64,000 nucleotides of DNA from Lutibacter citreus (GTDB taxonomy: Bacteria > Bacteroidota > Bacteroidia > Flavobacteriales > Flavobacteriaceae), in assembly GCF_003260195.1 (NCBI RefSeq), contig NZ_QEIH01000004.1, positions 434,001 to 498,000 on the forward strand. Direction: 5' to 3'. Positions 11,940-61,203 of the stretch are shown here, piece after piece; the stretch's first letter is position 1, and every line of letters begins with the position of its first letter. The translations under genes and the position numbers were made by a program. The notes under the pieces were generated by a model that saw only the letters and a program-made list of their open reading frames with translations, did not search any database and had not been told where the DNA came from.

Positions 11940-11970
11940 TCTTTTATTTTATTCATCTGCAATAAATTTA

Positions 11971-35776: not shown

Positions 35777-35853
35777 AATTTATTTTATTTATTCGAGACC
35801 AATTACTTTTCTTTCCGTTATTTTCTCTTTGAATTTTGAATTAATCGAACTTT

Positions 35854-36792
35854 TTATTCTTTAAAATCATATAATTTAAACCAATCCAATTCCATAGTGG
35901 TTACTACTTCATCGTTTCCTCCACCTGTCCATAAGTTTCCTAAATACCAAAACATTTCAGACCTACACTCTTCTGGAATTGAGTTGATTGTGCCTTTTTC
36001 CTTATCATCAAAAATGACTTGATTACCTAACTTAATCCATTCATCATTTATTACTCTCCATACTTGAATAAAACCTGGTGTATACTCCAATCCATATGTA
36101 TGAAATTCTCCATCAATATCATCATTATAAAAAGATTTCATAATTGCTTTTTCTCCTAATGAACCATTTACAGAGGCATCGTTAATTTTTTTACCATTTA
36201 TTCTACAAGGAGCATCTGCTTGCGTTGCCGCTCCAAACTTTCCATCTATTGTTGCGTTAGTAACTTCAACCAAATCTATTTCTGTCCAATTTTTATCTGG
36301 CAAACTGGTTCTTCCTTCTTTAGTTCCGTTTGATTTACCACTCCATAAGCCTGGATGATAACTAGATTTACTATTAATAACAAAACCTGTAACTCGCCAT
36401 TTTAGAGAATAAAACCCATACTTCATATGATTTTTAGAAACAATTCCTCCTCCTTTGCCTTCCATTCCGTAACAAATTAAGTTCCCATTTTTAAAATCAA
36501 TAAAACGTTCTTCTTCAGTGACTTTTTTAGTGTCCTTATTAAGCTCTTGCCTTCTAAACCATTTATTGCTATCTAAAGTACTTTCTTCAAAATCATCAGA
36601 CACCAAATTGTTTACAATTGGCTCATAATTATTAGTTATTTCAATAGGTATTTCCAATACAATTGTTTCATCATTTACTTCTTCCTCAACATTCTCTTCT
36701 ATTACAATGTCAACTTCATTGTTATTTGAATTACTACAACTAATAATTAAAAAAACAACAAATACTATTTTTCCGAAATACATACTTTTCAT
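35854..36792 (-). CDS. GH16 lipoprotein
   Basis: Start placed at the ATG at 36792 (MKSMYFGKIV), not the GTG four codons earlier. 312 residues with lipobox IISC (Cys19) and a Glu/Asp-rich linker. Single GH16 domain, catalytic motif EIDLVE (Glu171, Asp173, Glu176), WYLGNLWTGG and ELDWFKLYDF at the end, without an inserted domain. It is closer to the GH16 at 24233 than to the two neighbours. The acidic spacer behind the lipid anchor suits an outer-surface endo-hydrolase. It has a 77-bp gap to the next gene downstream, one of the larger gaps in the operon. Confidence 0.9.
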   Translation of the reverse strand: MKSMYFGKIVFVVFLIISCSNSNNNEVDIVIEENVEEEVNDETIVLEIPIEITNNYEPIVNNLVSDDFEESTLDSNKWFRRQELNKDTKKVTEEERFIDFKNGNLICYGMEGKGGGIVSKNHMKYGFYSLKWRVTGFVINSKSSYHPGLWSGKSNGTKEGRTSLPDKNWTEIDLVEVTNATIDGKFGAATQADAPCRINGKKINDASVNGSLGEKAIMKSFYNDDIDGEFHTYGLEYTPGFIQVWRVINDEWIKLGNQVIFDDKEKGTINSIPEECRSEMFWYLGNLWTGGGNDEVVTTMELDWFKLYDFKE

Positions 36793-36814
36793 AATAGAAT
36801 ACACTTTTTAAATT

Positions 36815-39800
36815 TTATTTTTCTGCTTTTATAGTACTCGTCCAATTACTTTTCTTCCCATTATTTTCTCTTTGAATTTGGAAATAAATTTCATCTTCAT
36901 TATTTAAATCAATAGTCATCATTCCTCTAACATTAGATCTAAATTCCTTATTTAAATTTTCTTTTGAAGTTCCATATCTTACAGTATAAAAAGCATCTCC
37001 AAACTCACTTGTATATCCTATTACAACTTTATTATCTGATCTAAATGCATCCCAAACTTTAGGAGCTAAAGGTTTTCCATTAGTAATTCCCTTAATTGAA
37101 TTTGGTGTTTTACTTTCTCCTTTTCCATTTAAGGCAACAACACTAAAATTGTATTCTTTATTATTAGATAAACCATCTATTTCAATGGCATTTGTAATTG
37201 TTTTAAATGACTCAACTACTTCATTATTATCATTTGTATAACGAACTACATATTCAGTTGCTCCAGGTACTTTATTAAATAAAACTCTTGCTGATTTATC
37301 ACCCAAATCTATTCCTGTAATAACTGGAGATTTTGGCGCTGAAAATGGTATTACTTTCTCGTATCTAACATAACCTGTTGGACTTACCAATTGAAGTCTT
37401 AAATCCAATAATTCTTTAGGAAGTTTGTTCCAAGTAATTTCACCTTTCCAAAGGTTGTCTACTGGATTTATAGTTGGTAACTCTAAAAATTTATCTTCAA
37501 TTATAGTTCCGTCTAAAGCTCTAAAATTCCATTTTAATTTATAACCTGTTAAACTATAACTTGGGTAATCGTTTAATCCTCTAATTGGAATTTCAACCTC
37601 AGCTTTATTATTTGAAATAGTTAAGTTTTTAACTTTAATATTTTTAATTGGGCTAAATTCTTTAGCCACTCTATCAAACATTCTACGTTTTTGTCTCCAA
37701 ACATTAATCAATCCCCAAACTCTATTTTCTTCTTGCGAAGTTGCTGCGTAACCACTTCTGTAATCGTTAAAAGTCCACAATGAACCTCCAATAACAAATT
37801 CGTTTTTACCTCGCCAATGCTCATTCCAATCTGAAAAAATTTGTTGGTCACCATCTAATGAAGTAGTTGGATACGGATCAAAACCATATTCTGAAATAAA
37901 GATTGGTTTATCTGGCCATTCACTTCTTAATTTATCAATAATAACTTGAGGTTTACCTTGCCAGCGATACATATTATGCATAATAATATCTACCTCCGTA
38001 TTTGGATCTGTTTTACGATTAGAAAAACTTTTCTGACCACTATTACTCACACAAGTAACCAATCTATTTGGATCCAATTCTCGAACATAATCCATAGTAG
38101 TTTTTGCATATTCATAATGACCGCTTAATTCATTACCAACACTCCAACCAATAATACTTGGGTGATTCCAATCACGTTCAATCATTCCTTGAATCCAATG
38201 TTTTGCTAATGGATATTCAGGCGCAGTAAATTCTGGATTTCCTAAATCACGAACATTAACTTCCTCAAAAATTAAGATTCCTTTTTTATCACAAAGCTCT
38301 ATCAGTTTTTCATTTTGAGTTCCGTGCATAATTCGCATAAAATTAGCTCCAGCTTCTTTCATTAAATCGACATCTTTTTCTAAAACCTCTAAAGGTTCTG
38401 AAGATCCCCAAAAACGGTGTTCACTTACACGATTAAATCCACCTAAACGAACTGGCTCTCCGTTTAATAACAGACTAGAATCTGTTACTTCAATTTTTCT
38501 AATTCCGAAATTATCAGTTCTAGTATCAATAACATTTTCATTTTCTGAAATAGTAGTTTCTAATTGATACAATTCTGGATGGTCAAAATGCCATAATTGT
38601 ACATTCTTAGCTTCTAGATCTCCTTCTAAAACTGCATCAATAATTTTATTAGCAGCTACTTCAACAGTTTTATCTAGTTCTACTAATTTTCCGTTTTTAG
38701 AAATTACGGTATGAATTGAAATATTTTTAGCCTCTAAAGAATTGTTTTCCAACCTAACTTTCAATTTAAAGCTTGCAGTTCCTTTTACTAAATCTGGAGT
38801 TGCGTGTATGTATTGATTGTTAATTCTAATATCATTATTCTTCACTAAATAAACATCTCTAATAATTCCACCCCAGTTCCAAGTTGCTCCAACCTTATTT
38901 CTATTATCAACCTCAACAGCAATAATATTTTTTCCGCCAAAATCTAATTGGTCTTTTACTTCAAACTCAAAAGGAGTAAAACCTCCTCTATGATCTCCAA
39001 TAAATTTTCCGTTTAAATAAACTTTTGCAACGTGATAAACACCATCAAATTTTAATCTAATTTTTTCATTTGAATCTTCTTTCCAACCTTTTGGTAATTG
39101 AAACTCTTTTCTGTACCAACCTAAACCGTTGTAATTTGAATATGAGTTGATCATTCCCCAATGACCAGGAACTTTTAAACTATTCCATTCCGAATCGTTG
39201 TAATCCGATACATAAACTTGATTTGGTTGTTCTTTTGCTTCTGTGTATTTCTCTTCTGAAATTGGTCTAAATAACACAGCATCTGCAGCAACTTCACCAT
39301 CGGTAATAGCAGTAACTTCAACATAATTATTTTCTGATGCATTAAATTTAAAAATACCCAAACTTATCCATTGTCCACAATCAGTTCTTTGACTTACATA
39401 TTTTGATATTTTTCCTTCTGAACTATTTATATTTATTTGAGCAGTTAAATGTGATCCAAAAGGGTAAATAACTATGGCTTCATAATAACCCGTTTTGTTT
39501 ATTGTTGGTTTAAAACGCACATAATTATTTGCGGCTTCCTCTTTTTTAAAATTACGGACTAAATAGTCTTCACCATAAAAAACAGATCCTCTTCCTCCTA
39601 CTTTCTTCGTTTTCCAAGTTCCTTTAATTTCTATTCTGTCAGCATCTGTATTATCAATTACAATATCAGATTCTTGTTCAATAATATTTAAAGGATTTGA
39701 ACCCATTCCATAAATAGTATTGAATTTCCAATCACCACTTAATAGCATTTGATTAGTATCAGGAATGTCACTTGAATTTGTTTGTGTTTTACAACCAACA

Positions 39801-39862
39801 ACTAACAAACTCATTAAAAGAATACTAATTTTTATTGCTCCTAATAATTTAAAATCTCTCAT
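36815..39862 (-). CDS. GH2 beta-galactosidase-like lipoprotein with golvesin-like insert and FN3 tail
   Basis: 1015 residues, lipobox LVVGC (Cys24). The GH2 sugar-binding domain starts at LLSGDWKFN (40-48), is interrupted at about 66-200 by a domain that matches the golvesin C-terminal/xanthan-lyase type fold (YYEAIVIYPFGS ... CGQWISLGIFKFN ... VAADAVLFRP), and resumes at DSEWNSLKVPGHWG. The catalytic TIM barrel has acid/base Glu578 (WSVGNEL) and nucleophile Glu658 (ISEYGFD). Two fibronectin-III-like modules end the protein (about 825-1015). Exo-beta-galactosidase on galactan oligosaccharides is the expected role; GH2 also includes glucuronidases and mannosidases. Followed by a second, simpler GH2. 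Confidence 0.9.
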   Translation of the reverse strand: MRDFKLLGAIKISILLMSLLVVGCKTQTNSSDIPDTNQMLLSGDWKFNTIYGMGSNPLNIIEQESDIVIDNTDADRIEIKGTWKTKKVGGRGSVFYGEDYLVRNFKKEEAANNYVRFKPTINKTGYYEAIVIYPFGSHLTAQININSSEGKISKYVSQRTDCGQWISLGIFKFNASENNYVEVTAITDGEVAADAVLFRPISEEKYTEAKEQPNQVYVSDYNDSEWNSLKVPGHWGMINSYSNYNGLGWYRKEFQLPKGWKEDSNEKIRLKFDGVYHVAKVYLNGKFIGDHRGGFTPFEFEVKDQLDFGGKNIIAVEVDNRNKVGATWNWGGIIRDVYLVKNNDIRINNQYIHATPDLVKGTASFKLKVRLENNSLEAKNISIHTVISKNGKLVELDKTVEVAANKIIDAVLEGDLEAKNVQLWHFDHPELYQLETTISENENVIDTRTDNFGIRKIEVTDSSLLLNGEPVRLGGFNRVSEHRFWGSSEPLEVLEKDVDLMKEAGANFMRIMHGTQNEKLIELCDKKGILIFEEVNVRDLGNPEFTAPEYPLAKHWIQGMIERDWNHPSIIGWSVGNELSGHYEYAKTTMDYVRELDPNRLVTCVSNSGQKSFSNRKTDPNTEVDIIMHNMYRWQGKPQVIIDKLRSEWPDKPIFISEYGFDPYPTTSLDGDQQIFSDWNEHWRGKNEFVIGGSLWTFNDYRSGYAATSQEENRVWGLINVWRQKRRMFDRVAKEFSPIKNIKVKNLTISNNKAEVEIPIRGLNDYPSYSLTGYKLKWNFRALDGTIIEDKFLELPTINPVDNLWKGEITWNKLPKELLDLRLQLVSPTGYVRYEKVIPFSAPKSPVITGIDLGDKSARVLFNKVPGATEYVVRYTNDNNEVVESFKTITNAIEIDGLSNNKEYNFSVVALNGKGESKTPNSIKGITNGKPLAPKVWDAFRSDNKVVIGYTSEFGDAFYTVRYGTSKENLNKEFRSNVRGMMTIDLNNEDEIYFQIQRENNGKKSNWTSTIKAEK

Positions 39863-43367: not shown

Positions 43368-45641
43368 CTATTTACAAAGAATTTCAAAAATAGATGCTGG
43401 AACATTTTCTGATGGATGTTCTACTTCTATAAGAATTCCTTTTATTTTTGAATCAAATTTCCAAGTGTTTATTGTTTGGTAATTCCCTTCTTTTTGACCT
43501 AATACTGTTCCTTTTAAATCTTTAATTGTATAATTTCTCAAACAAAATGGAGCAACATCTTCCGGATGTCCCATTAAAGTAGATTCTAACGGATGATCGT
43601 AATCTGGATCTAAAAACAACTTAATTTCTGAAAGCTCTTTTTCCGAATCCCATTCAATTTTTAAACTTGGTTTTTCATCTTCCAAACTTGCACTCCAAGC
43701 ATTTACTGCTCCCCAAGGACGTACATATCCATTTCCTATATTTGAGCTATCAAAAGCTTCAATAGCCGGAGAAATTTCCATTGCTATGTTAAACCCTTCA
43801 GGTCTTCTCTGCGGAATCCAAAATTCAAAAGTGTCTACACCAATTCCATCAGGAGGTGTTTGTTTTCCATTATTTGAAACAGCTTTATTAACTCCATTAA
43901 AAACAGATAAAACACCTGAATAACGCTTAGTACTATTTTTAAAGTACACTTTTTTATTAGACATAAATGTCACAAAAGCATATTGATTTTTAGTTACTGA
44001 ACCTACAAATTCAAACTCAACTTCTTGTTCTCCTTTTTTTAGATTGATGATTTGCTTTTCAATTATAATTTCAGGAGCATAGTTTTTAGACCTTTTTGAA
44101 GTTCTTAATTGGACTTCTATTTTAGTATCTTCATCTGCTTTTAATAATACCTTAAACTTGTAGCTTTCATTCGCTTTAAAAGGTAATAATTGTGCTGCAG
44201 AAGTTCCTAAATTTGTCCAACTTCCATCAAATGGAATTTTACTTAATTTCAAATTTGAAGAACTTGTAACAGTTGCCTCATTCACTAAATTACTTTCTTG
44301 TTGAATTGGAATATTAGGAATACTCTGCCCTACTATATTCAATTCATTTTGTAGTGTTTTAAGCAATCCGTTATCTAAAATTTCCGCAGGATTCACATTA
44401 TTTTCAATACAAATAGCTGCAGCCATACCAACGGCTTGAGCACACAATCCCGTTGTCGCCATAACTCTTGTAGAACCAAAAGCAACATGTGTAGCACTTA
44501 TAATTCTTCCTGCTAAAAACAAGTTATCAATATCTTTACTTACAAATGAACGATAAGGAATTTGATATACTCCTTTTGAGTGCCATTGCGTACAACCAGA
44601 TAATTTACTATAAACTCCTTCCGCAGGGTGTAAATCAATTGCCCAACCACCGTGAGCAATTGCATCATCAAATTTAGTTTGACCTAAAACATCTTGTTGT
44701 TTCATCATATACAAACCTTCAAAACGACGACTTTCACGTTTTCCAGGAACAGTTCCTACCCATTCCAAGGTCATATTATCCACATCTTCAAACTCTCCTG
44801 AATTTTTAATATAATCCCAAACTCCGTAAATTACTTTCCAAAGTTCATATTTTATTTCTTCTGTATCGTGAATGGTATCTCCATCTCCTCCGTACTCAAA
44901 CCACCAAAAACGACAACCTTTATCGTCTTTTCCAATAGCTTTATAACGAGGAATTTTTTTTATGTCTTTCAATGCAAAATCAGGTGCCACAAACTTTACT
45001 GGCTTATCTGTATTCTTGCTATAAAAATACATTGAGTGTCCCAATAATTCTCCATATGATTTATCTGGAGCAAATAACTCTCCAAATTCTTCTTTGCTTT
45101 CTGCCCCCATTCTAAAAGAAGCTCCAGCTTTAAAAGCTACAATTCCATCACCCGATGCATCACAAAATAAAGGTGAATTTATAACGTATTCTGTTGAATT
45201 TTGAGGGTTGAAAGCCTTCACTGATTCAATTTTAGTATCACCCGATTTTAAAACATCATAAACACTTGTATTTAACAAAAGTGTGATGTTTTTTTCATTC
45301 AACACTTTCTCCAATAAGACAGTATCAAAAATTACAGCATTTCCTTCTTTATTTCTATAAAGGTTTTCAACTAAAATTTCATCCATTACACCACCTTCAC
45401 GAGACCAACGGTTGTTGTTTCCCATATGTGAAGTTGCTCCCAATATCCACAATCTAACTTCTGAAGAAGCATTACCTCCAAGCACTGGCCTATCTTGAAC
45501 TAAAACAGTTTTAGTTCCTTTTCTTGCTGCGGTAATTGCTGCACAAACTCCTGCTGTACCACCACCTATAACTACAAATTCACTCTGTAATTCTTCAACC
45601 TTATTAGATCTTACTTCTTTGTTAAAACCCTTAACTAACAT
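43368..45641 (-). CDS. FAD-dependent oxidoreductase (PF12831-type)
   Basis: 757 residues without signal peptide, so cytoplasmic. Dinucleotide-binding VIGGGTAGVCAAITAARKG at about 27-45, followed by GGNASSEVR and DASGDGIVAFKAGA; the FAD domain runs to about 430 (AGRIISATHVAFGSTRV). The C-terminal 300 residues have beta-rich, carbohydrate-binding-like features (WIPQRRPEGFNIAMEISPAI). Family members are often found in sugar-degradation loci and probably oxidise a sugar or an oligosaccharide hydroxyl. Its ATG lies inside the symporter's last codons (11-bp overlap), so the two are translationally coupled and possibly the substrate imported by the symporter is oxidised here. Confidence 0.85.
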   Translation of the reverse strand: MLVKGFNKEVRSNKVEELQSEFVVIGGGTAGVCAAITAARKGTKTVLVQDRPVLGGNASSEVRLWILGATSHMGNNNRWSREGGVMDEILVENLYRNKEGNAVIFDTVLLEKVLNEKNITLLLNTSVYDVLKSGDTKIESVKAFNPQNSTEYVINSPLFCDASGDGIVAFKAGASFRMGAESKEEFGELFAPDKSYGELLGHSMYFYSKNTDKPVKFVAPDFALKDIKKIPRYKAIGKDDKGCRFWWFEYGGDGDTIHDTEEIKYELWKVIYGVWDYIKNSGEFEDVDNMTLEWVGTVPGKRESRRFEGLYMMKQQDVLGQTKFDDAIAHGGWAIDLHPAEGVYSKLSGCTQWHSKGVYQIPYRSFVSKDIDNLFLAGRIISATHVAFGSTRVMATTGLCAQAVGMAAAICIENNVNPAEILDNGLLKTLQNELNIVGQSIPNIPIQQESNLVNEATVTSSSNLKLSKIPFDGSWTNLGTSAAQLLPFKANESYKFKVLLKADEDTKIEVQLRTSKRSKNYAPEIIIEKQIINLKKGEQEVEFEFVGSVTKNQYAFVTFMSNKKVYFKNSTKRYSGVLSVFNGVNKAVSNNGKQTPPDGIGVDTFEFWIPQRRPEGFNIAMEISPAIEAFDSSNIGNGYVRPWGAVNAWSASLEDEKPSLKIEWDSEKELSEIKLFLDPDYDHPLESTLMGHPEDVAPFCLRNYTIKDLKGTVLGQKEGNYQTINTWKFDSKIKGILIEVEHPSENVPASIFEILCK

Positions 45642-47295
45642 TTATATCTTTTTTTGAATTTTTAAAAATAATATAGCTTCCCAAAATAAGTACTAACGCT
45701 CCCATTCCAGTAACCAATAGTGTTGGATTCCCTTCAAGCATTGATATAATAACAATCAATAACCCTGTTGAAGCAACTCCAATTCCTATAACTCTTCCTC
45801 CTTTTTTATTTCCTCCTTCAGACTCTTTAGCATCTTGAGGTGCTTTTGAATCAACTATTTTTAAATAGCTAGCATATTGAGATGTATCTGATTTTCTTGT
45901 TCTTAAATAGACTTCAAAAATGAATAATAATAACATTGGAATTCCAACACCTGCCGTCATTTCCATTGCTCTGTTTAAACTATACTCGAACATTGATGGC
46001 ATTACAAACTTGAAAAATGAATTTATAACCAGCGAAACTATTGTTACTACTAGTACACTTTTACCTGTTTGGTATTTTGAAAATAATGCAACTAATGGCG
46101 GTAAGAACATAGCTCCACCCGTAATGGCCGCTAAACTCATAACTACCTCTACAATTCCACCCATATAAGGCACTAATAAGGCTACAACAATTGTAATTAA
46201 ACCTAATCCAATAGTTGCCATTCTACCAACCTTTACTAATTTATCTCCGCTAGTTTCAGGATAAAAATGTTTATAAACATCATTTGCCAAAACACCTGCA
46301 GAAATATTTAAGGTTGTATTTACGGAACTTGAAGTAGCGAAGATCATTCCTCCTAACATTAAGCCTAACATTCCTATTGGTAATACTTCTTTACACATTA
46401 AAAGGTATGCTCCTTCATCTGCTAACCCACCTAAATCTGGATTCAATACTTTATAAATCATTGGTGGTAACATCCAAATTAGCGGGCTAATTGTATACAA
46501 TCCACCAAATAACCAACCTACTTTTTTTGCATCTCTAGGAGTTGCAACACTTGTATAACGCTGTATGTAGGCCCAGTTTCCTGCAATAAAGAATAAATTA
46601 TACAACCCAAAAGTTACCATAAACTCCCAGGAATATTCGGTATTTGTAAAGTTAAAAAAGTTGTCTGGTGCTTTAGCTATAAAATTGTCAATCCCACCTA
46701 TTTTATCAAAAGACAATGGAACAACAATTAAAACTGCAGCGGTTAATACCACAAATTGCAACACATCGGTCACAATTACTGCCCATAAACCGCCAACGGC
46801 AGTATATATTAATATTAACACACCTAAAAACACTATACTTGCTGAAATTGGAATTCCTGTTGAAACCTCCACAATTTTAGCTACTGGATATAAAAATGCA
46901 CCAGTTGTAAATACAGATATCAGTAAAAATAAATAAGTGTATATTTTTTGAGTATTGTACCCTAATCTATCTGTAATAAATTCTGCAGCCGTTAAGGCTT
47001 TTGTTTTTTGCCATTTTGGAGCAATTACAAAACCGATTATTAAACCAGCAATACACATTGTCCATTGAATTGTTACTGCAACCCAACCGCTACTGTATGC
47101 TATTGATCCCCAAACCACAAAAGTTCCTGCTGAGAAAAAACTCATAAATAATGACAAACCACTCATCCACCAAGGTAATGCTCCACCTGCTGCGAAAAAC
47201 GATTTCATATTTTTCCCTGACTTTGCAAAACTCAATCCGCAAACAAATACTAACAGTGTAAAAATTAGTATAACCGCAATATCAATACTACTCAT
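45631..47295 (-). CDS. Sodium:solute symporter (SSS family)
   Basis: Start placed at the ATG at 47295 (MSSIDIAVILIF); a TTG seven codons earlier is less likely. 554 residues with about 13-14 transmembrane segments and the SSS signature (GGLWAVIVTDVLQFVVL). Family members import sugars, sialic acid, proline or other solutes with sodium. It is the only transporter in the window and the first gene of the 27-kb minus-strand operon, directly behind the LacI operator. It probably takes a mono- or disaccharide product across the inner membrane; the solute cannot be read from sequence. Confidence 0.93.
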   Translation of the reverse strand: MSSIDIAVILIFTLLVFVCGLSFAKSGKNMKSFFAAGGALPWWMSGLSLFMSFFSAGTFVVWGSIAYSSGWVAVTIQWTMCIAGLIIGFVIAPKWQKTKALTAAEFITDRLGYNTQKIYTYLFLLISVFTTGAFLYPVAKIVEVSTGIPISASIVFLGVLILIYTAVGGLWAVIVTDVLQFVVLTAAVLIVVPLSFDKIGGIDNFIAKAPDNFFNFTNTEYSWEFMVTFGLYNLFFIAGNWAYIQRYTSVATPRDAKKVGWLFGGLYTISPLIWMLPPMIYKVLNPDLGGLADEGAYLLMCKEVLPIGMLGLMLGGMIFATSSSVNTTLNISAGVLANDVYKHFYPETSGDKLVKVGRMATIGLGLITIVVALLVPYMGGIVEVVMSLAAITGGAMFLPPLVALFSKYQTGKSVLVVTIVSLVINSFFKFVMPSMFEYSLNRAMEMTAGVGIPMLLLFIFEVYLRTRKSDTSQYASYLKIVDSKAPQDAKESEGGNKKGGRVIGIGVASTGLLIVIISMLEGNPTLLVTGMGALVLILGSYIIFKNSKKDINVS

Positions 47296-47363
47296 AATTG
47301 TATATTTTTCTTTCAAGTAAATTTAATCATTAGGAATCTTCTATATATAATTTATTCAAAAAA

Positions 47364-47387
47364 CAACTATCGAAAACGTAATAGTTG
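47364..47387. promoter_or_regulatory. Second, degenerate operator candidate
   Basis: Inverted repeat CAACTAT ... ATAGTTG (7-bp arms, 10-bp spacer) whose spacer, CGAAAACGTA, resembles one half of the nearby palindrome (CGAGAACGT). It lies about 70-90 bp upstream of the symporter start and could be a weaker site for the same LacI-type protein or a site for another regulator. Confidence 0.35.
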
Positions 47388-47398
47388 GGGGTTTATTT

Positions 47399-47418
47399 TT
47401 TCGAGAACGTTCTCGAAA
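47399..47418. promoter_or_regulatory. Palindromic LacI-type operator at the divergent promoter
   Basis: Perfect 20-bp palindrome with core CGAGAACGTTCTCG and flanking TTT/AAA arms. It lies between the symporter operon and the lacI-type gene and covers the place where the -33 element of the lacI promoter should be. Same core as at 17319-17334. Autoregulation and control of the divergent operon are expected. Confidence 0.85.
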
Positions 47419-47433
47419 CTTGACATTTATTCA

Positions 47434-47441
47434 TACATTTG
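47434..47441 (+). promoter_or_regulatory. -7 element of the lacI-type gene
   Basis: TACATTTG matches TAnnTTTG, 20 bp before the ATG at 47462. The -33 region at normal spacing falls inside the palindrome, so a bound repressor would block it. Confidence 0.5.
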
Positions 47442-47461
47442 TTATTATCAATATCCTTTCA

Positions 47462-48478
47462 ATGAAATACATAACTATAAAAGACATTGCTAAAAAACTA
47501 AACACCTCTGTTTCAACAGTTTCAAGAGCATTTAACGATAAATCGGATATAAATGCTAAAACAAAAGAGGTTGTTTTAAAAACTGCCAAAGAAATGGGGT
47601 ACCGCCAAAATAGAATGGCGAAAAATTTAGTACAAAGAAGATCTTTTAATATTGGTATTGTAGTACCTGAATTTGTAAATAGTTTTTTTCCTGAAGTTAT
47701 TATGGGAGCTCAAGACGTTTTATTTGAAAAAGGATATCAAGTTCTAATAACACAATCTAACGAGTGCTATACTACTGAGTTAAAAAATGTACAATCGTTA
47801 GAAAATAGTATGGTTGATGGGTTATTAATTTCCTTATCTTCGGAGACTGCCAATATAGATTATTACCAAGATTTGGTGAATAGTGGATTTCCAATTATTT
47901 TTTTTAACAGAACTTACAAAGAGATAAAAGCATCTAAAGTGCTTTTTAACGATTATAAATGGGCAATGTTTGCTACTGAACATTTAATTAGACAAGGCTA
48001 CCGAAATATTTACCATTTTCAAGGAATTAAAACCCTTACTTTATCTAGAGAAAGAAGAAGAGGATTTATGGACGCTCATAAAAAGCATAAAATAACCGTA
48101 GAGCCACATCAAGTAATTACTTCTGGTTTTTTTATGGAAGATGGAGAAATTATTGCAAAAAAATTGATTAAAAACAATACCATTCCAGATGCCATATTTG
48201 CTGCAAACGATCAATTAGCAATTGGAGCTATGAATGTTTTCAAGAATAATGGATATAAAGTTCCAGAAGACATTGCCTTTATAGGCTTTTCAGAATCTAA
48301 AATGGGAAGTATTGTTGAACCTCCACTTTCCTCTGTAAAACAGCCTACTTTTGAAATTGGAAAGCAGGCTGCTAAATTACTATTAGATCAAATTGAAGCT
48401 GGAAATAACCATTCTCCGCAAACTGTAATGTTAGATGGTGAACTTCATATTAGAGAATCCTCTCAGAAAAAGATTTAA
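47462..48478 (+). CDS. LacI/GalR-family transcriptional regulator
   Basis: Start at 47462 (MKYITIKDIAKKLN); the 14 residues that could precede it are not part of the family. 338 residues: N-terminal helix-turn-helix TIKDIAKKLNTSVSTVSRAFND, hinge helix NRMAKNLVQRR, and a periplasmic-binding-protein-like sensor domain (FNIGIVVPEFVNSFFPEVI ... AIGAMNVFKNNGYKVPEDIAFIGF). It should bind the CGAGAACGTTCTCG palindrome and be released by a sugar from the locus. The last 202 bp of the conserved coding sequence are repeated exactly at 53243-53444. Confidence 0.95.
   Translation: MKYITIKDIAKKLNTSVSTVSRAFNDKSDINAKTKEVVLKTAKEMGYRQNRMAKNLVQRRSFNIGIVVPEFVNSFFPEVIMGAQDVLFEKGYQVLITQSNECYTTELKNVQSLENSMVDGLLISLSSETANIDYYQDLVNSGFPIIFFNRTYKEIKASKVLFNDYKWAMFATEHLIRQGYRNIYHFQGIKTLTLSRERRRGFMDAHKKHKITVEPHQVITSGFFMEDGEIIAKKLIKNNTIPDAIFAANDQLAIGAMNVFKNNGYKVPEDIAFIGFSESKMGSIVEPPLSSVKQPTFEIGKQAAKLLLDQIEAGNNHSPQTVMLDGELHIRESSQKKI
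48267..48468 (+). repeat. Left copy of 202-bp perfect direct repeat (lacI 3' end)
   Basis: Bases 48267-48468, ending ten bases before the end of the lacI-type gene, are identical by eye to 53243-53444, in the same orientation 4976 bp away. They enclose the TIM-barrel gene, GH3 and AraC genes. Confidence 0.95.
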
Positions 48479-48549
48479 TAACCTAATACTTAAATCATAT
48501 ATATTTTGGAGACATTGTTGCTTTATTAATAAGTTTAAATAATCAAATC

Positions 48550-49737
48550 TTATTCTTTTTTAACATAATTATCAGGAAAGCCATTAAAAGCACGAGCAAA
48601 AACAGCAATGTTTTTTTCATCGTTTTTATACTGATCAACCGGTTTAGACAAGTAGTAATTAATTGGTTTCATTATGTTTCCAATTACAGGTTTTGTAAAC
48701 CCATACAGTCCTACTCCCGTTTTTTTTGCATGTGAAACAACTTCCAAAGGATCTTGCTGATTCCAGGAAGCCAAGCAGGTCATTATTTTGGCATGATCAC
48801 CAATTAGACTTCTAGTCGATTCAGTTCGGGAAACATCTCCTGCCTCATTCATTATCCAATCAACTTCTTGTAATACTTTTGTCCCAACATATTCTTTGCT
48901 TCTCAATTCATTGGCAGACAACCAAATAAGGCAGCTAGGTTTTGTGCTTTTAGCAGCATCCCTAATTCTTCCCCAAGCCCTATCAATTGACTTTTTTCTG
49001 AATTCAATTTCAAGAGGTAAATTCATTTTATGTTTTCCAGGGAAACCCTCACCCATTAATTCTTTGTACATTATTTGTTCGCAAGGCAACCATCTTAAGG
49101 CAGGAAGTGGATCGTGACCGCCTCCGGGATTGTACAACCAATCGATCATAAAACCATCCATGTCTGTTTTAATTATGGCATCTTTAATTGACGCACACAA
49201 ATAATCAAGGTATTCTGTTGTAAACGGTATTTGTATACCCCAGGTTTGGTAGCATTGATCAGGATGGAGTTCCTCCCAACGATTATTCGCCCCAATACAA
49301 AAATATCCGAACACTTTCATGTCATTTTTTCGTCCAAGCTTAACCATTTCTGTTAAAAAATCGTATTTAAGCCCAGGTTGTTCAGGTACAACACCATTCT
49401 TATACCAAGCGTAACCATTGCTCGAAACCGCAAACGTTTGTATGGTATTACATCCAAGATCTTTATACCACTTAACATGCTCTTCAGGGTTAGCATCGGC
49501 CCATAATCCAGGTATGGCAAAACCATGTGCTCCGTCACCTTTGAAATTCCAATTATAATCAATACAATATGCTTTTATTATATCATTGTTATTTTCACTG
49601 TTTGAAGAACTAAATGTAAGAGTTGGTAAATCATTTCTATTGTCCTTTTTCTTATTTGAACAACTACTGGTAAAAGTTAGTACAATCATAATAATAACCC
49701 CCCATTTTACTTTTATTCTAACTTTTTGTCTTTCCAT
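48550..49737 (-). CDS. TIM-barrel glycosidase-like lipoprotein of unknown family
   Basis: 395 residues, lipobox TSSC (Cys26). After a short spacer, segments typical of a (beta/alpha)8 barrel follow: WYKDLGCNTIQTFAVS, MKVFGYFCIGAN, MDGFMIDWLYNPGG (a candidate catalytic Asp), SCLIWLSANE, VDWIMNEAGD and VGLYGFTKP. This looks like a putative glycoside hydrolase of the GHL/alpha-fucosidase-like barrel group, but I cannot place it in a numbered family. Its base composition rises locally to 55% GC in one 60-base line, well above the surroundings. Downstream partner of GH3 (58 bp) inside the module bounded by the lacI-end repeats. Confidence 0.75.
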   Translation of the reverse strand: MERQKVRIKVKWGVIIMIVLTFTSSCSNKKKDNRNDLPTLTFSSSNSENNNDIIKAYCIDYNWNFKGDGAHGFAIPGLWADANPEEHVKWYKDLGCNTIQTFAVSSNGYAWYKNGVVPEQPGLKYDFLTEMVKLGRKNDMKVFGYFCIGANNRWEELHPDQCYQTWGIQIPFTTEYLDYLCASIKDAIIKTDMDGFMIDWLYNPGGGHDPLPALRWLPCEQIMYKELMGEGFPGKHKMNLPLEIEFRKKSIDRAWGRIRDAAKSTKPSCLIWLSANELRSKEYVGTKVLQEVDWIMNEAGDVSRTESTRSLIGDHAKIMTCLASWNQQDPLEVVSHAKKTGVGLYGFTKPVIGNIMKPINYYLSKPVDQYKNDEKNIAVFARAFNGFPDNYVKKE

Positions 49738-49795
49738 TTTATTTTTATAATATTAAGTATTTTTAACCTAATGTTTAAGTTTTATATAACTTTCC

Positions 49796-52150
49796 TTATT
49801 CCTCAATTCTGTTTTCTGAAAATAGAACACTACGTTGATTAAAAACTGTTTTTTCTCCTTTAATATTTACTTCTCCGCTTAGACGAATGTCAAGACTTGA
49901 TGCTCCAACTTTAAACTCATAAACACCTGGATCAATTTCCCATTTTCCCTGATTATAATAAGCTAGTTGTTCGGGAGAAACGGAAATAGTTACTTTTTTA
50001 TTCTGTCCCTTTAGTATATTAGTTTTAATAAAACCTTTTAGTTCAATTGGCTCTAAACCTTTATTTTCTTTTGGTGGTGACACATACAATTGTGCAATTT
50101 CTGAGCCTTCAAAATCACCCGTATTTGAAATTTCAAACGAGATTTCAATTCTTTTATCTTGAATATTAGCCTCTTTCGGCATTGTTAAATTATTATAGTC
50201 AAATGTTGTAAAGCTTAACCCATAGCCAAAAGGATACATTGGCATATCATTCGCTTCGTAGCCTTGACTGTAAACAATTGGAGCTTGCTGATTGTTTCTG
50301 GGGTAAGTGACAGTTAGTTTTCCTGAAGGAATTTCATTACCTAATAAAATATCTGCAACTGCATTCCCTCCTTCTTCTCCCGGGAACCAAGCCTGTAGAA
50401 TGGCGTGACACCCTTCTTCTATATCTGTAATTATTTGAGGTCGCCCTCCAAAAATAACAAGAATAACTGGTTTACCTGTTTCAATTAATTTTTTGACAAA
50501 TGCTTCTTGTTCACCAGGTAGTCTAATATCCTTTCTGTCACGGTTTTCTCCAACTAAATACAACTGTTCTCCCATTGCCGCAATAATTATATCGCTATCC
50601 TTTGCTATTTTTATAGCCTCAGAGCTATTGGGTGCAAGTCTATTTTTAGCACTAATGTATTTTACATTTTTGGAGCGTTCATCTCCAATATCACTAAGCT
50701 CATCAATTTCATCACGTAATGATTTTGTCCAATCACAGCCTCTTTCATAGGTTAGCTTAACATCTTTTGAAAGTTTTGTCTTTAGTCCATCGTATAAGGT
50801 TATCAACTTAGGGCTTTCCTTATCTATAGGATACTCCCACCAATATGCGGCTAATGATTGATAAGAATAATCACCTAACAAAGATTCTACAGCATCAGCA
50901 TTTGGCCCAACTAAAGCTATTTTTTTAACTTCTTTACTTATAGGTAAAACACCATTATTTTTTAGTAACACAATAGATTCTGTAGCTGCTTTATGTGCTC
51001 TAACCCTGTTTTCAGGTGGGTCTAGATTAATTGGCTCATCTAAATTAAGTTCTTCATAATCCAATAAACCCAAACGATCTTTTAATACCAAAACGCGCTT
51101 CACTGCAATATTAAGGTCTTCCTGGGTTAAACTTCCTTCTGCAAGTGCTTCTTTAAAATAAGGAAAACTCATTCCGAAAGGCAACTCTACATCACAACCT
51201 GCCTTTAAACTTTTTATCCCTGCTTCTTTTTCTGAAGAGGCAAATTTATACTTAGACCAAACTTGTTGTACAGACCAAAAATCAGAAACAACCATTCCTT
51301 CAAACCCGTATTTATCTCTTAGAATATCAGTTAGCAACATCTTATTAGCAGTACAAGGAACACCATTAATAGCATGATAACCAGCCATTACACTTTGAGC
51401 GTTCCCAAAACGAACTGTAGCTTCATGAGGAAGTAATACCTCTTCATGCAATGTTTTTTCATTGTCTGTTCCGCCTCCATATCCAGCAAAATGTTTAATA
51501 GTAGCAGCAACTCCTGTTTTTAAATTATCTCCTTGTAACCCCTCCACAAAGGCTAATCCCATTGTAGCTGTTAAATAAGGTTCTTCTCCAAAGCTTTCTT
51601 CAATTCTTCCCCAATGCGAGTTTCTACAAATATCCAGCATAGGAGATAATACCTGCGTCGCTCCAACTTTTCGCATTAACTTTGCAGACATGGCTGTATT
51701 TTCTTTTAAAAGTTTAGTATTCCAAGTACATCCCATCCCTATCTGTTGTGGCAATGTTGTTGCCCCTTTCGCTGAAAAACCACAAATAGCTTCATCACTA
51801 AATAATGCTGGAATTCCACTTGGTGTTTCATTTAATAGATACAATTGAATTTCATTAACTACTTTTCTAATTTCAATCGGGTTTAAATCAGTTGAGCCAG
51901 CAAATTGCCCAAAATGACCAATACCGTTTGGTATCTTCTTCCTACATGAATCTAATGACAATTCTCTACCATCTAACAAATCTTTAAGCCAAATTCCTTG
52001 TAATTGGGCTATTTTCTCTTCATCTGACATATTCAATAGAATAGCACTTATCCGATCTTTATTATAAGTAAGTTGAGTATCCTTTATTTTAGAGTTGCAA
52101 GAGAATAAAACAATACCCAATAAAGACCAAACAATATTTTTTAATTTCAT
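49796..52150 (-). CDS. GH3 beta-glycosidase lipoprotein
   Basis: 784 residues, lipobox VLFSC (Cys18). GH3 barrel with KHFAGYGGGTDN and the nucleophile segment GMVVSDFWS (Asp290), alpha/beta sandwich domain with FPGEEGGNAVADILLGNEIPSGKLTVTYP, and C-terminal fibronectin-like domain. It is of a different GH3 subgroup from the enzyme at 9708 (YGGGTDNEKTLHE, VMAGYHAING). Likely beta-glucosidase or beta-xylosidase type activity. Transcribed divergently from the AraC gene at 52308, which probably controls it. Confidence 0.93.
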   Translation of the reverse strand: MKLKNIVWSLLGIVLFSCNSKIKDTQLTYNKDRISAILLNMSDEEKIAQLQGIWLKDLLDGRELSLDSCRKKIPNGIGHFGQFAGSTDLNPIEIRKVVNEIQLYLLNETPSGIPALFSDEAICGFSAKGATTLPQQIGMGCTWNTKLLKENTAMSAKLMRKVGATQVLSPMLDICRNSHWGRIEESFGEEPYLTATMGLAFVEGLQGDNLKTGVAATIKHFAGYGGGTDNEKTLHEEVLLPHEATVRFGNAQSVMAGYHAINGVPCTANKMLLTDILRDKYGFEGMVVSDFWSVQQVWSKYKFASSEKEAGIKSLKAGCDVELPFGMSFPYFKEALAEGSLTQEDLNIAVKRVLVLKDRLGLLDYEELNLDEPINLDPPENRVRAHKAATESIVLLKNNGVLPISKEVKKIALVGPNADAVESLLGDYSYQSLAAYWWEYPIDKESPKLITLYDGLKTKLSKDVKLTYERGCDWTKSLRDEIDELSDIGDERSKNVKYISAKNRLAPNSSEAIKIAKDSDIIIAAMGEQLYLVGENRDRKDIRLPGEQEAFVKKLIETGKPVILVIFGGRPQIITDIEEGCHAILQAWFPGEEGGNAVADILLGNEIPSGKLTVTYPRNNQQAPIVYSQGYEANDMPMYPFGYGLSFTTFDYNNLTMPKEANIQDKRIEISFEISNTGDFEGSEIAQLYVSPPKENKGLEPIELKGFIKTNILKGQNKKVTISVSPEQLAYYNQGKWEIDPGVYEFKVGASSLDIRLSGEVNIKGEKTVFNQRSVLFSENRIEE

Positions 52151-52307
52151 ATAATGTATATTTAGTTATTCCAATTTCAGAGGCTATTAACTATGTTAAC
52201 CTTATTTAGAACTACACAAAATAAGCTATATTTTATAGTTTAAAATTGAATATTTCTATCATATATTTGTATATTTCTAACCTTTAATTTGTTTAAATCA
52301 TAATTTA

Positions 52308-53186
52308 ATGACAGATATATTCACTAAACCATTATTTGAAGCTCTCCCAAATAAAACAGGGGCATTCTCCACTAAAAGACTAGTTTGCACTTATTTAGAA
52401 TATCCATATCATTATCACCCTGAATACGAACTAACTTATATTATTAAAGGAAAAGGAAAAAGATTTACAGGAAACAATATTGAGGAATTTGAAGCCAACG
52501 ATTTTGTATTAATGGGGCGTAATTTACCGCATGTTTGGAAAAGTGATATAGAATATTATGACAACCCTAACCTTCTAACAGATTGTATTGTAATTCAATT
52601 CTCTAAAGATAGTTTGGGTAAAGATTTTTTTGAATTAAATGAACTTAAAAACATTAAAGACCTTTTAAACAATTCTAAGTACGGAATCAAATTTAGTAAA
52701 AAAATCAAAGCTAAACTTTTACCAAAAATGAAGAAAATAGTTAGTTTAAGTGGAGCAAAAAAGATTACATCTTTTATTGATATATTGGATGAATGCTCCA
52801 AGGATAAAGATATTGTATTACTTTCTAAAAAACTAATATACATTAACCCTGGAGGCAAAGACAGTCAGCGTTTCAGTAAAATATTCAACTATATTATTGA
52901 AAATTTACATCGTGAAATTACAGTAAATGAAGTTTCTACTTTGGTCGGTTTGGCAGATAATTCTTTTTCTAGGTATTTTAAAAAGCATACAAATGAATCA
53001 TTCGTTAAATTTGTAAATAAGTTGCGAATTGAAGCAAGTTGTTCCTTAATAAAGTCTGGCGAAAAAAATTTCACTCAAATATGTTTTGAAGTAGGTTTTG
53101 GGAGTTTATCTTATTTTAACAGACAGTTTAAACAATATAAAAAAACAACGCCTTCTGAATATATGAGGACATTTCATAATTTTTAA
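52308..53186 (+). CDS. AraC-family transcriptional regulator
   Basis: 292 residues: an N-terminal cupin-type sensing domain (YPYHYHPEYELTYIIKGKGK, then NDFVLMGRNLPHVW) and a C-terminal double helix-turn-helix of AraC type (ITVNEVSTLVGLADNSFSRYFKKH, FTQICFEVGFGSLSYFNRQFKQ). Such proteins usually activate genes when a sugar is bound. It is divergent from the GH3 gene with 157 bp between, so it likely regulates GH3 and the barrel gene. It belongs to the repeat-bounded module, which would therefore carry its own regulator. Confidence 0.93.
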   Translation: MTDIFTKPLFEALPNKTGAFSTKRLVCTYLEYPYHYHPEYELTYIIKGKGKRFTGNNIEEFEANDFVLMGRNLPHVWKSDIEYYDNPNLLTDCIVIQFSKDSLGKDFFELNELKNIKDLLNNSKYGIKFSKKIKAKLLPKMKKIVSLSGAKKITSFIDILDECSKDKDIVLLSKKLIYINPGGKDSQRFSKIFNYIIENLHREITVNEVSTLVGLADNSFSRYFKKHTNESFVKFVNKLRIEASCSLIKSGEKNFTQICFEVGFGSLSYFNRQFKQYKKTTPSEYMRTFHNF

Positions 53187-53202
53187 AAAAAAGTATAATG
53201 GG

Positions 53203-53469
53203 GTGAATTATTTTGCTATTTCATATAATTTATTAGCAAAAAAAGACATTGCCTTTATAGGCTTTTCAGAATCTAAAATGGGAAGTATTGTTGAACCTCC
53301 ACTTTCCTCTGTAAAACAGCCTACTTTTGAAATTGGAAAGCAGGCTGCTAAATTACTATTAGATCAAATTGAAGCTGGAAATAACCATTCTCCGCAAACT
53401 GTAATGTTAGATGGTGAACTTCATATTAGAGAATCCTCTCAGAATAATAAAACATCAAATAAACTTTAA
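53203..53469 (+). pseudogene. Duplicated 3' fragment of the lacI-type gene
   Basis: An open frame whose residues from about 15 on (DIAFIGFSESKMGSIVE to LHIRESSQ) repeat the C-terminus of the regulator at 47462-48478, followed by a different tail (NNKTSNKL). It has no DNA-binding domain and the lead-in sequence is unrelated, so it is a gene fragment. The different tail may be the ancestral end of the regulator gene, preserved when the module entered. Confidence 0.9.
53243..53444 (+). repeat. Right copy of 202-bp perfect direct repeat (lacI 3' end)
   Basis: Identical by eye to 48267-48468. The first mismatches on both sides are immediate (g versus a before, a versus t after), giving sharp ends that mark a recombination junction. 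Confidence 0.95.
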
Positions 53470-53472
53470 TCT

Positions 53473-54666
53473 TTAAAAGATAGTATATCCTAATAAGAAA
53501 GAAAAATTACTGTAATCTAAAGTGTTCTGTCCTTTCTTCCATAAAAGATTTGATGCAACTCCATATCTAACCTCGGCTGAAAACTTATTCTTATATTTAT
53601 AACCTATTCCAAGAACAGAATGAACTACATGTTCAAAATCATAGGTAATATTTTTGAACTTTAAATTTGAATCACCAACAATATCAAATACATATAAATA
53701 ATTTAAAAATAATTTAGATTTCTCATTTAATTGCATATAGTGCCTAACTCCAAAGGAAAATTCAACTGAGGAATAGTCAACTTCTGCTTTGTGATAAGTA
53801 ACAAGATTTTCATAACCACCAATTAGTTCTTTAATATCTTTTTCAGCTTTAAAACTTTGAACCAATGGCTCAAACAACAGACTCCATTTCCCCTTGTTAA
53901 ATGGAAATATAAATTCAAGCTCCGCTCCAAGTTTATAAGATAAATCCGCATCTAATGTTTGTCCTTTAAATTTTAACGTATTCTTTTTTATACCTATTTT
54001 AGGCGTAAAATTAAACGCTCCAGCCTTTTTGGATTTAACATATCTTGGATTTTTACACTTATTATAATCATCAAAAAAATTTATTAGACTTTTATTATAT
54101 TGTAAATTTTCAACTTTTGCTAATGATATTTTAGAACATTTTAAATTTAATAAAAGTTGTTGTTTATATTCATAATTATGCGCAAGCATTTCAACATCAT
54201 CTACTGTTGAATTATAAATTTTATGCACTAATTGTTCTATACTTCTACTAGGTATTTTATAAAAAAACCTTATTAAGTTATTATTCTCATAATAATACAA
54301 ATTAGCATCTCCTTCAACTAATACTTTTAAAAATAAGGTGTCTTTTTCAAACTTAACATTTCTTGATGTATCTAAATCATCAATATTATAAACAGTTTTA
54401 TCAATGTTTACCTCTGCACTAATATATTTTAGTTCATCACTTAAACCAAATTCTTTAATATTTTTAACATTTCCTATTTGCTCTTCTCCATCCAAGGATT
54501 TTTTATAAATGAACTCTTTAGGAATATTAAAAAAGTCTACATTTTTAATATAGCATTCAATTGTTTCATTTGAATCAGTAATAATGTATCCTTTTTGAAA
54601 TGTAACTTGGGAAAATCCATTAAATAAAGTAAATACCAAAACGGTAAGGGTAATAATCTTTTTCAT
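53473..54666 (-). CDS. Outer-membrane beta-barrel-like protein of unknown function
   Basis: 397 residues, signal peptide ending FNGFSQ. The first half (about 20-170) has short repeated strands of unknown type (YIITDSNETIECYIKNV, NVKNIKEFGLSD); the second half has the alternating pattern and aromatic ends of a small outer-membrane barrel (FNFTPKIGIKK, KWSLLFEPLVQSF, VEFSFGVRHYMQL, NFSFLLGYTIF with a terminal Phe). This matches a kind of flavobacterial protein with no assigned role. It has its own promoter-like element and is not clearly part of the GH28 unit. Confidence 0.7.
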   Translation of the reverse strand: MKKIITLTVLVFTLFNGFSQVTFQKGYIITDSNETIECYIKNVDFFNIPKEFIYKKSLDGEEQIGNVKNIKEFGLSDELKYISAEVNIDKTVYNIDDLDTSRNVKFEKDTLFLKVLVEGDANLYYYENNNLIRFFYKIPSRSIEQLVHKIYNSTVDDVEMLAHNYEYKQQLLLNLKCSKISLAKVENLQYNKSLINFFDDYNKCKNPRYVKSKKAGAFNFTPKIGIKKNTLKFKGQTLDADLSYKLGAELEFIFPFNKGKWSLLFEPLVQSFKAEKDIKELIGGYENLVTYHKAEVDYSSVEFSFGVRHYMQLNEKSKLFLNYLYVFDIVGDSNLKFKNITYDFEHVVHSVLGIGYKYKNKFSAEVRYGVASNLLWKKGQNTLDYSNFSFLLGYTIF

Positions 54667-54683
54667 AGTGTTTTTTGTTTACA

Positions 54684-54691
54684 CAAAAATA
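54684..54691 (-). promoter_or_regulatory. -7 element for the beta-barrel protein gene
   Basis: The minus strand reads TATTTTTG (TAnnTTTG) 17 bp before the start codon at 54666. This supports separate transcription from the GH28 gene, which ends at 54716. Confidence 0.4.
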
Positions 54692-54715
54692 CCTTGTTTT
54701 TAAATTTACACCTAA

Positions 54716-56083
54716 CTATTTTAGCCGTTTTCTATTTAAAAATATATTACTCGTAAAACCATCAACTACATCATCAAAAACCAATGGAGGTCTTGAGTCA
54801 TCTTTAATTGTATTTATATGAACATTATTAATACTCAAGCCTTTTATATGACGTGCATAAATACCACTTGCCGGCAATGTTTTTACCAAATAAAATTCTG
54901 GCCACCATTCTCCAAGTACATCCAATGTATATTCTTTAATTTCTTTTGAAGCATCTTCTTTTGTTCCTCCTCCTGAAACGGTAAACTGAATATTATTTAA
55001 CTGAATATCTGAAATATAATTATCAGGCATTCCAGTTAGAAAAAATGCTGAATTTTTATCTAACTCCTTATTATCAACAATAAAATCGCTAAAAATAAAA
55101 CTGCGCATAGCTTTCATAGGTAACATTTCAACCGGAGAATCTACTCCTGCACGTTGTTGACAAAAAGTCATAAATACAGGTCTCGGCACGTTTCTCATTA
55201 CTAAATTTGTAAACGACATATTTTTCATTTCAGCACCTTCATTCATTTGAATTTTTAATCCTGAATCTTGAATATCGTGAAACGTACAATTAGAAACTGT
55301 TACAGATTCAAAATCGCCACGAGAAGCTAAACCAATTCGCATAGCCGCCCATTTACTTGTAAACACACAATTTGTTACCACAATATCTTTACAAGGCTTA
55401 TCTGCTCTTGAAGTTTGTAAACAAATAGAATCATCACTAGTATCAAAAGAACTGTTTGAAACACGAACATTTGTACAGCCATCAAAATCTAATCCGTCTC
55501 CATTTCCATTAACTCTACTATGAATTTTAATTCCATCAACAACAATTTCATCACAATACAACCAAGCCGAAGTCCAAGCAGCTGGATTAATCAACGTAAT
55601 ATCATTCATATGAATTTTACTACAATTCAAAAAACGCATCATCATTGGACGACCACCCTTTTTTCTTGTAAAATTTTTCATATAACCATTCCCGTCAATA
55701 GTTCCATAACCTTCAAAAGCAAATGATTTAGCATTACTAGCAAAAATTAAACAACGGTCCATATGAGGTTCATTCTTATAGGTGTTTTTATGAGTGTCTG
55801 TTGTATAATCCTCATAGTCTGGACTCCCCAATAAAACTGCTCCATTTTCAATATGAAGTGTTACATAATCCTTCATATAAATTGTACCAATCATCACCGT
55901 TTTTCCTGCAGGAATTATAACTTTCCCACCTCCATTTTCAGTACAAGCATCAATTGCTGCTTGAACAGCTTTTGTATCTTTAGTAACTCCATCTGCTTTT
56001 GCTCCGTAATCTATTACGTTAAAATCTGTAGCAAATACTTGCAACTGAAACCCTATTATCAATAGAAATATTATTTTTTTCAT
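54716..56083 (-). CDS. Secreted GH28 family glycosidase
   Basis: 455 residues, signal peptide ending VFATD. Right-handed beta-helix of GH28 (polygalacturonase fold): the N-terminal NVIDYGAKADGVTKDTKAVQ, then NGDGLDFDG (Asp196), DTSDDSICLQ (Asp217, Asp218) and LKIQ (Lys277). The usual histidine-containing GHG segment between them is missing (AAMRIGLA), so it is a divergent member. Typical activities are on galacturonides or rhamnogalacturonan, and the natural substrate in this sulfated-galactan setting is unclear. Last gene of a minus-strand unit, 6 bp after the double esterase. Confidence 0.85.
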   Translation of the reverse strand: MKKIIFLLIIGFQLQVFATDFNVIDYGAKADGVTKDTKAVQAAIDACTENGGGKVIIPAGKTVMIGTIYMKDYVTLHIENGAVLLGSPDYEDYTTDTHKNTYKNEPHMDRCLIFASNAKSFAFEGYGTIDGNGYMKNFTRKKGGRPMMMRFLNCSKIHMNDITLINPAAWTSAWLYCDEIVVDGIKIHSRVNGNGDGLDFDGCTNVRVSNSSFDTSDDSICLQTSRADKPCKDIVVTNCVFTSKWAAMRIGLASRGDFESVTVSNCTFHDIQDSGLKIQMNEGAEMKNMSFTNLVMRNVPRPVFMTFCQQRAGVDSPVEMLPMKAMRSFIFSDFIVDNKELDKNSAFFLTGMPDNYISDIQLNNIQFTVSGGGTKEDASKEIKEYTLDVLGEWWPEFYLVKTLPASGIYARHIKGLSINNVHINTIKDDSRPPLVFDDVVDGFTSNIFLNRKRLK

Positions 56084-56088
56084 TTTGT

Positions 56089-58047: not shown

Positions 58048-58048
58048 T

Positions 58049-59335: not shown

Positions 59336-59360
59336 TGTTTGAAAAATTAGTTTTTGGCAA

Positions 59361-59429
59361 CCTGAACTTGGTTCAGGTTCTCATCAATCTAGTAATCATT
59401 ATAATGAGATTCTGAAACAAGTTCAGAAT
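59361..59429. repeat. Intergenic repeat with two hairpins
   Basis: CCTGAAC-TTG-GTTCAGG and ATTCTGAA-ACAAG-TTCAGAAT form two separate perfect inverted repeats in the 196-bp gap between the two sulfatase genes; a further weak CGGATT/AATCCG pair follows. The style matches short dispersed intergenic repeats of Flavobacteriaceae (from memory). It may act as a transcript-stability or partial terminator element. Confidence 0.5.
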
Positions 59430-59531
59430 GACGGATTTAATAATTGAATTAAACAAAGAATCTTTAATCCGTTAAATAGACTTTTCGATTACGCTAAGCT
59501 TCACTCAAAATGACATATTTTATTTCAATTA

Positions 59532-61187: not shown

Positions 61188-61203
61188 TTTATTTAAAATT
61201 TTA

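Follow-up and report, generated by a model that had tools for sequence, protein, structure and literature searches.

Homology-facilitated illegitimate recombination, known from transformation experiments with Acinetobacter, Streptococcus pneumoniae and Pseudomonas stutzeri, offers the closest precedent for the locus described here, a sugar-use gene module of Lutibacter citreus framed by two copies of the 3' end of a lacI-type regulator gene. The locus lies in a stretch of 64,000 nucleotides (contig NZ_QEIH01000004.1, positions 434,001 to 498,000), hereafter the window, to which all coordinates given without a contig refer. What the lacI locus would share with these experiments is foreign DNA that is homologous to the chromosome at one end and closed by an illegitimate junction at the other; however, the experimental cases are laboratory transformants, whereas the event at lacI is read from genomes and its homologous donor was not found. 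The same type of recombination has been described in conjugation of Escherichia coli (PMC3240628). The lacI case belongs to a type of event already described, and its interest lies in the recurrence.

Arrays of the type VI secretion system of Vibrio cholerae contain displaced effector and immunity genes, for which the authors propose homology-facilitated illegitimate recombination (PMC5361080). There, as in Lutibacter, new genes are placed behind a conserved anchor, and the 3' end of the old gene is shifted downstream, but the Vibrio case is a toxin array, whereas in Lutibacter sugar-use genes and valS are involved and the anchor stays functional at full length. A survey of three species found 10 to 18% of small variable segments flanked by direct repeats (PMC2884548); these segments, too, are present in one genome and have an empty counterpart in another, but 66 to 94% of their repeats are under 30 bp, in contrast to the Lutibacter repeats of 202, about 130, and about 67-90 nt. 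In S. pneumoniae merodiploids, transforming DNA creates direct duplications (PMC3784515), as proposed here, but those are large tandem duplications between chromosomal repeats, unlike the short partial-gene duplication around foreign genes in Lutibacter. Literature searches for such scars in Flavobacteriia or for polysaccharide clusters brought up no paper evidently concerned with them, as judged by titles and the beginnings of abstracts.

The lacI-type gene (47462..48478, plus strand; PF00356 and Peripla_BP) is intact, starting with the ATG at 47462 and ending in SSQKKI*, and its 3' end, at 48267..48468, recurs in the same orientation at 53243..53444. The original prediction of a perfect 202-bp duplication proved exact: all 202 bp are identical at a spacing of 4976, without a further matching base on either side (a repeat listing shows 205 nt because it runs past one mismatch), and a search of the complete assembly (5.11 Mb in 35 contigs) recovered two full-length matches and no third. 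Among exact direct repeats of at least 80 bp, this is the only one in the 495 kb of the same contig that were scanned, which excludes a chance origin. The reading frames also bear out the contrast drawn earlier between an intact left regulator and a headless right fragment with a different tail: the right copy is a lacI remnant on the plus strand whose frame continues to SSQNNKTSNKL*. The tail of the near copy ends within 2-3 residues of the LacI ends of relatives (SSQKI*, SSLKK*, STVKI* twice, and SSVKR*). Given that the end of the intact gene and the unused fragment show no difference in 202 positions, against about 20% for the same stretch compared to the relative G037, the module gain appears to have been recent, in line with what had been read from the perfect identity, unless gene conversion intervened. 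No second lacI 3' fragment was found in 12 loci with lacI orthologues or a paralogue.

An empty site, sought at the suggestion of the original prediction, exists in both of the nearest relatives with an orthologous lacI, namely, uncultured Lutibacter 4-1427 (G037) and Lutibacter oricola (G008), where lacI is 91% and 89% identical and the neighbour genes are collinear. In G037, lacI is directly followed by the orthologue (55%) of the gene at 53473, then GH28, GDSL, and sulfatase genes; in G008, GH28 comes directly after lacI. The sequence on the right side of the far copy (53445..53472, plus strand, comprising the frame end NNKTSNKL* and resident sequence up to the next gene) aligns with the empty site of G037 over 76 nt, with a score of 26.5 that none of 2000 shuffles reached, and the distance from the far copy to the next gene, about 33-37 nt, is the same as in that empty site. 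The flank of the near copy (48469..48549, the lacI tail QKKI* and a non-coding spacer) shows no significant similarity to the lacI flanks of relatives (lowest p 0.05). Because the right flank matches the empty site and the left one does not do so significantly, the far copy lies in the resident surroundings, and the module is the addition.

Between the repeats, where a barrel glycosidase-like gene, a GH3 gene, and an AraC regulator had been predicted, Pfam assigns a GHL6-type glycoside hydrolase of 395 aa (48550..49737, minus strand; PF14871), a GH3 enzyme of 784 aa (49796..52150, minus strand), and an AraC-type regulator of 292 aa (52308..53186, plus strand); the module then ends with a stretch (53187..53242) that is joined to the lacI interior at 53243. 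The GHL6 protein has no match at E<=1e-30 in the 37 other genomes of the genus (38 were searched, and its own was matched). At E<=1e-80, it is found among 397 genomes of the family only in its own genome and in G043, at 48%, and among 395 genomes of the order and 395 of the phylum (draws that overlap the genus and family ones) only in its own. A donor search in a collection of genome contigs yielded four pattern matches, none of them a relative, and there was no match among plasmids. The GH3 enzyme has relatives of 50-52% within the genus, the best non-self match being at 52%, and the closest non-self relatives of the AraC protein in the family sample reach 40-43%. Taken together, these comparisons support the view that the module is foreign to the sampled genus. 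Two more GHL6-type genes (50-51%) lie on contig C34 of the same genome (locus L082, 11213-12361 and 15259-16413), in opposite orientation and separated by about 3 kb that hold a sulfatase-like gene; neither around these two paralogues nor around the G043 gene is there a similar module.

We consider it moderately probable that the GHL6-GH3-AraC module was recently added by homology-anchored illegitimate recombination, with lacI as the anchor. The incoming DNA would have carried a lacI 3' end followed by the module; on the left side, this incoming end would have paired with the resident lacI and replaced its end by ordinary homologous recombination, and on the right side, an illegitimate join would have formed within the resident lacI at a point 202 bases short of the end of homology. 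Replacement on the left combined with such a join on the right would leave the near lacI as the complete gene and the far copy as the displaced resident 3' end. The same product could have come from linear DNA with one illegitimate end or from a chimeric circle integrated by a single crossover; the donor, the form of the DNA, and the order of events are inferred. RecA-dependent recombination between the repeats is predicted to remove the module, after which a single intact lacI would remain, carrying the other tail.

A second, older scar with the same anatomy in degraded form lies in the same window. Here, the anchor is a GH2 gene (36815..39862, minus strand), behind which a gene of 316 aa (35854..36804, minus strand), absent at this place in G037 and G008, is followed on its far side by a degraded remnant of the GH2 3' end (35783..35873, minus strand; 67 nt at 81%). 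For this segment, 35562-36842, the local alignment score is 75, exceeded by one of 300 random pairs (276, the next being 57). The remnant reads FKIQRENNGKKSNWSRINKIN*, the full GH2 ends in YFQIQRENNGKKSNWTSTIKAEK*, and GH2 of G037 ends in YFQIQREIKGQKGNWSAIIKVN*, so that the remnant has the resident type of ending (KIN compared to KVN) and the full gene a new one, as at lacI.

The third locus, at valS (C31:76145-78772), bears on the question of a donor. An AlaDH-like gene of 396 aa has been added behind valS, and a remnant of the valS 3' end together with the following hairpin region lies beyond it (C31, about 80290-80417); the repeat is 85.7% identical over 42 nt and extends to about 130 nt, with a score of 100, when the following stretch is included. 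In G037, about 185 nt separate valS from the next gene, FTCD, which in L. citreus lies beyond the added gene, and therefore, the valS site is empty in G037. The near copy with its following stretch is closest to G025 (102/122, compared to 94/121 for G037 and 96/123 for G008), whereas the far remnant is closest to G037 (98/123, compared to 88/122 for G025). Over the 38 columns that differ between the copies, G025 agrees with the near copy in 25 and with the far one in 8 (sign test, p 0.005), and there is no such separation for G037 (15 and 18) or G008 (20 and 16). In regions chosen after looking, valS up to C31:78545 agrees with G037 and G008 jointly over G025 at 146 sites to 36, whereas from C31:78745 on the ratio is 3 to 9 (Fisher test against the body of the gene, p 1e-4). 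By sequence affinity, the two valS copies thus seem to have come from different lineages, which is what is expected of a donor and a resident. Such different nearest lineages point to donor DNA recombining in the shared gene, with illegitimate closure in the resident 3' end, and speak against one end having been copied from the other.

How often such scars accompany gene gain was assessed by comparison with G037, where 62 of 205 alignment pieces (identity at least 76%, at least 250 nt) define 18 clean presence/absence segments measuring between 0.8 and 8 kb, 10 of them extra in L. citreus and 8 extra in G037 (two of these 8 lie in tandem paralogues and may be misjudged). The repeat test covered these 18; nine more segments were listed against G008. 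Only the lacI segment has a long exact repeat, the longest words shared across the ends of the others being 8 to 14 nt, compared to 8 to 13 nt in 60 random pairs; in 16 of the 18, no repeat rises above the random-pair level, and one segment other than that at GH2 has a local alignment score of 38, inside the random range.

We also scanned 1237 open reading frames (ORFs) in about 1.69 Mb (contigs C30, C34, and parts of C31 and C22 of L. citreus, C6 of G037, and part of C29 of G008) for gene ends copied nearby, keeping single matches that cover under half the gene; 92 mid-gene matches stand outside the counts. Besides lacI and GH2, two more non-paralogous 3'-end copies past another gene were recovered, namely, that at valS and one behind a gene of 702 aa in G037; in neither case are the neighbour genes paralogous (blastp, no E below 0.9). 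At E<=1e-4, the 3' end recurs downstream in 6 cases and upstream in 2, and the 5' end downstream in 2 and upstream in 6; after subtraction of the paralogue-like matches over 300 nt, these counts become 4, 1, 2, and 5, so that by bare counts at this threshold the class of 3' ends copied downstream shows no enrichment. With the limit tightened to E<=3e-7, a choice made after looking, that class retains 4 cases and the other three none, a direction bias that lies in the strength of the matches. In the G037 case (C6:135959-140446; L121, L122), the last codons of the 702-aa gene recur behind an unrelated gene of 708 aa with a score of 59, and the locus is possibly a further scar in a relative; it is the weaker case, as the anchor itself lies inside an extra segment, so that no empty site is seen.

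Several observations weigh against anchored recombination. At lacI, no difference between donor and resident is seen, both copies being identical over 202 bp; hence, any donor would have matched the resident fully over this length, or conversion would have erased the differences, and there is room for copying within the genome. Over the last 200 bp of lacI, L. citreus is nearer to G008 than to G037, and so is the far copy, the one expected to be resident. At GH2, both copies have RENNGKKSNW where G037 has REIKGQKGNW, and because the copies share states without a counterpart in G037, a donor/resident difference is lacking there as well. The valS regions compared were, as said, selected with the data in view, and the 396-aa gene also occurs in G025 and G002, away from valS, so that no donor with the required arrangement is known. 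Finally, a scar-type repeat marks only 2 of the 18 presence/absence segments (lacI and GH2), which means that most gains or losses leave no such scar.

The most serious rival, which we nevertheless regard as rather unlikely, is copying within the genome: a foreign fragment would have been taken up where the lacI 3' end had broken or a replication fork had stalled in it, and either the filling-in of a long staggered end or replication template switching would have copied 202 bases to its far side. No donor lacI is needed under this scheme, and survivors would keep the upstream gene functional, which would make it always the 3' end that is duplicated. The full identity of the lacI copies, the states that the GH2 copies share to the exclusion of G037, and repeat lengths that differ among the scars (202 at lacI, about 67-90 at GH2, about 130 nt at valS) and thus imply no fixed target length all fit such copying, but it calls for two illegitimate junctions instead of one, and the different nearest relatives of the valS copies are not expected from it. 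For lacI alone, the evidence does not separate anchored recombination from copying within the genome; the part of the original prediction that invoked integration through lacI homology stands as plausible, and it is the valS case that favours donor DNA carrying a piece of the anchor gene.

The element e14 of E. coli brings with it a substitute for the 3' end of icd, its target gene, and site-specific integration of a small element of this kind would account for the left copy restoring a complete lacI and for the repeat being the 3' end of the gene. We nevertheless find this hardly credible, whereas the original prediction had a mobile element rebuilding the gene end among its options: there is neither an integrase in the ORFs scanned nor a known att site, the 202-bp stretch occurs nowhere else in the genome and has no match in a plasmid collection, and similar scars are found at unrelated genes with unrelated cargo. 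The absence of transposase and integrase, already remarked on, is borne out by a Pfam scan of 41 out of the 45 window ORFs with at least 100 aa (the other four lie opposite longer ORFs); the three module genes include no recombinase in Pfam terms, and no inverted repeats of at least 20 nt were found at 44000-58000. The same map would result from a plain insertion, a subsequent tandem duplication, and a deletion that cut the second unit down to 202 bp. Bacteria commonly acquire short duplications, but two further events are needed, and the right flank is as far from the 53473-type gene as it is in G037, so that the trimming deletion would have to end exactly there, which makes this course of events improbable. 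Still less probable, though not quite so far-fetched as an integrating element, is an assembly artefact at one repeat copy: the genome is a draft, but the two copies share a single 534-kb contig, in which each has unique flanks unlike those of the other, artefacts usually collapse repeats rather than create them, and the same anatomy is found in degraded form at other genes.

A broader reading, which we regard as rather unlikely, is that Lutibacter, and perhaps other marine Flavobacteriia, extend their sugar-use clusters, and even housekeeping loci, through a recurring process without transposases, in which genes are added directly behind a resident 3' end and that end is duplicated on their far side. 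If so, fresh scars of the 202-bp type would be reversible by RecA without damage to the anchor, and a population could acquire such modules and shed them again cleanly, whereas old scars would decay and serve as a record of past events, the donor lineage among them. Most added modules carry no trace of their arrival route; in scars of different ages within one genus, a full gene together with a displaced 3' remnant makes it possible to read the entry point and relative age of the added gene and, under the most favourable circumstances, its donor lineage. The perfect 202-bp repeat could also serve as a natural system to measure loss of the glycosidase module.

The surroundings of the locus add several minor observations. 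The gene at 53473..54666 (minus strand) encodes a protein of 397 aa without a Pfam family, is absent from this place in G008, and is only 55% identical to its G037 orthologue, compared to 86-95% for the other syntenic neighbours examined; the interval between lacI and GH28 seems, from these comparisons, to be a variable site. A mosaic test of lacI from 48030 on placed the best switch from G037-like to G008-like sequence at 48262/48268, with none of 2000 shuffles as strong, but we do not use this switch as evidence for the junction, because the best point for the whole gene is at 48313/48322, the start was picked after looking, and similar switches are common across the surrounding region. Indeed, throughout 43368-61247, agreement with G037 or G008 alternates on a scale of a few hundred bases, a pattern that would fit frequent recombination among Lutibacter lineages. 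Outside the repeat, the flanks diverge at once at 53243. The L. citreus genome has a ComEC-type channel gene, which fits anchored recombination, though its family is common, being present in 10 of 14 control genomes. At the orthologous lacI locus of Flavobacterium fluviatile, there is a direct repeat of 1361 bp (98.7%; L073:1127-2487 and 11385-12745), each copy a gene of 416 aa with a secretion tail. Flavobacterium potami is 99.2% identical from L073:9892 on but is without the block that these repeats frame in F. fluviatile, which comprises GH43, GH2, an FAD oxidoreductase, a symporter, and lacI, with an adjoining transposase of the IS1595 type.

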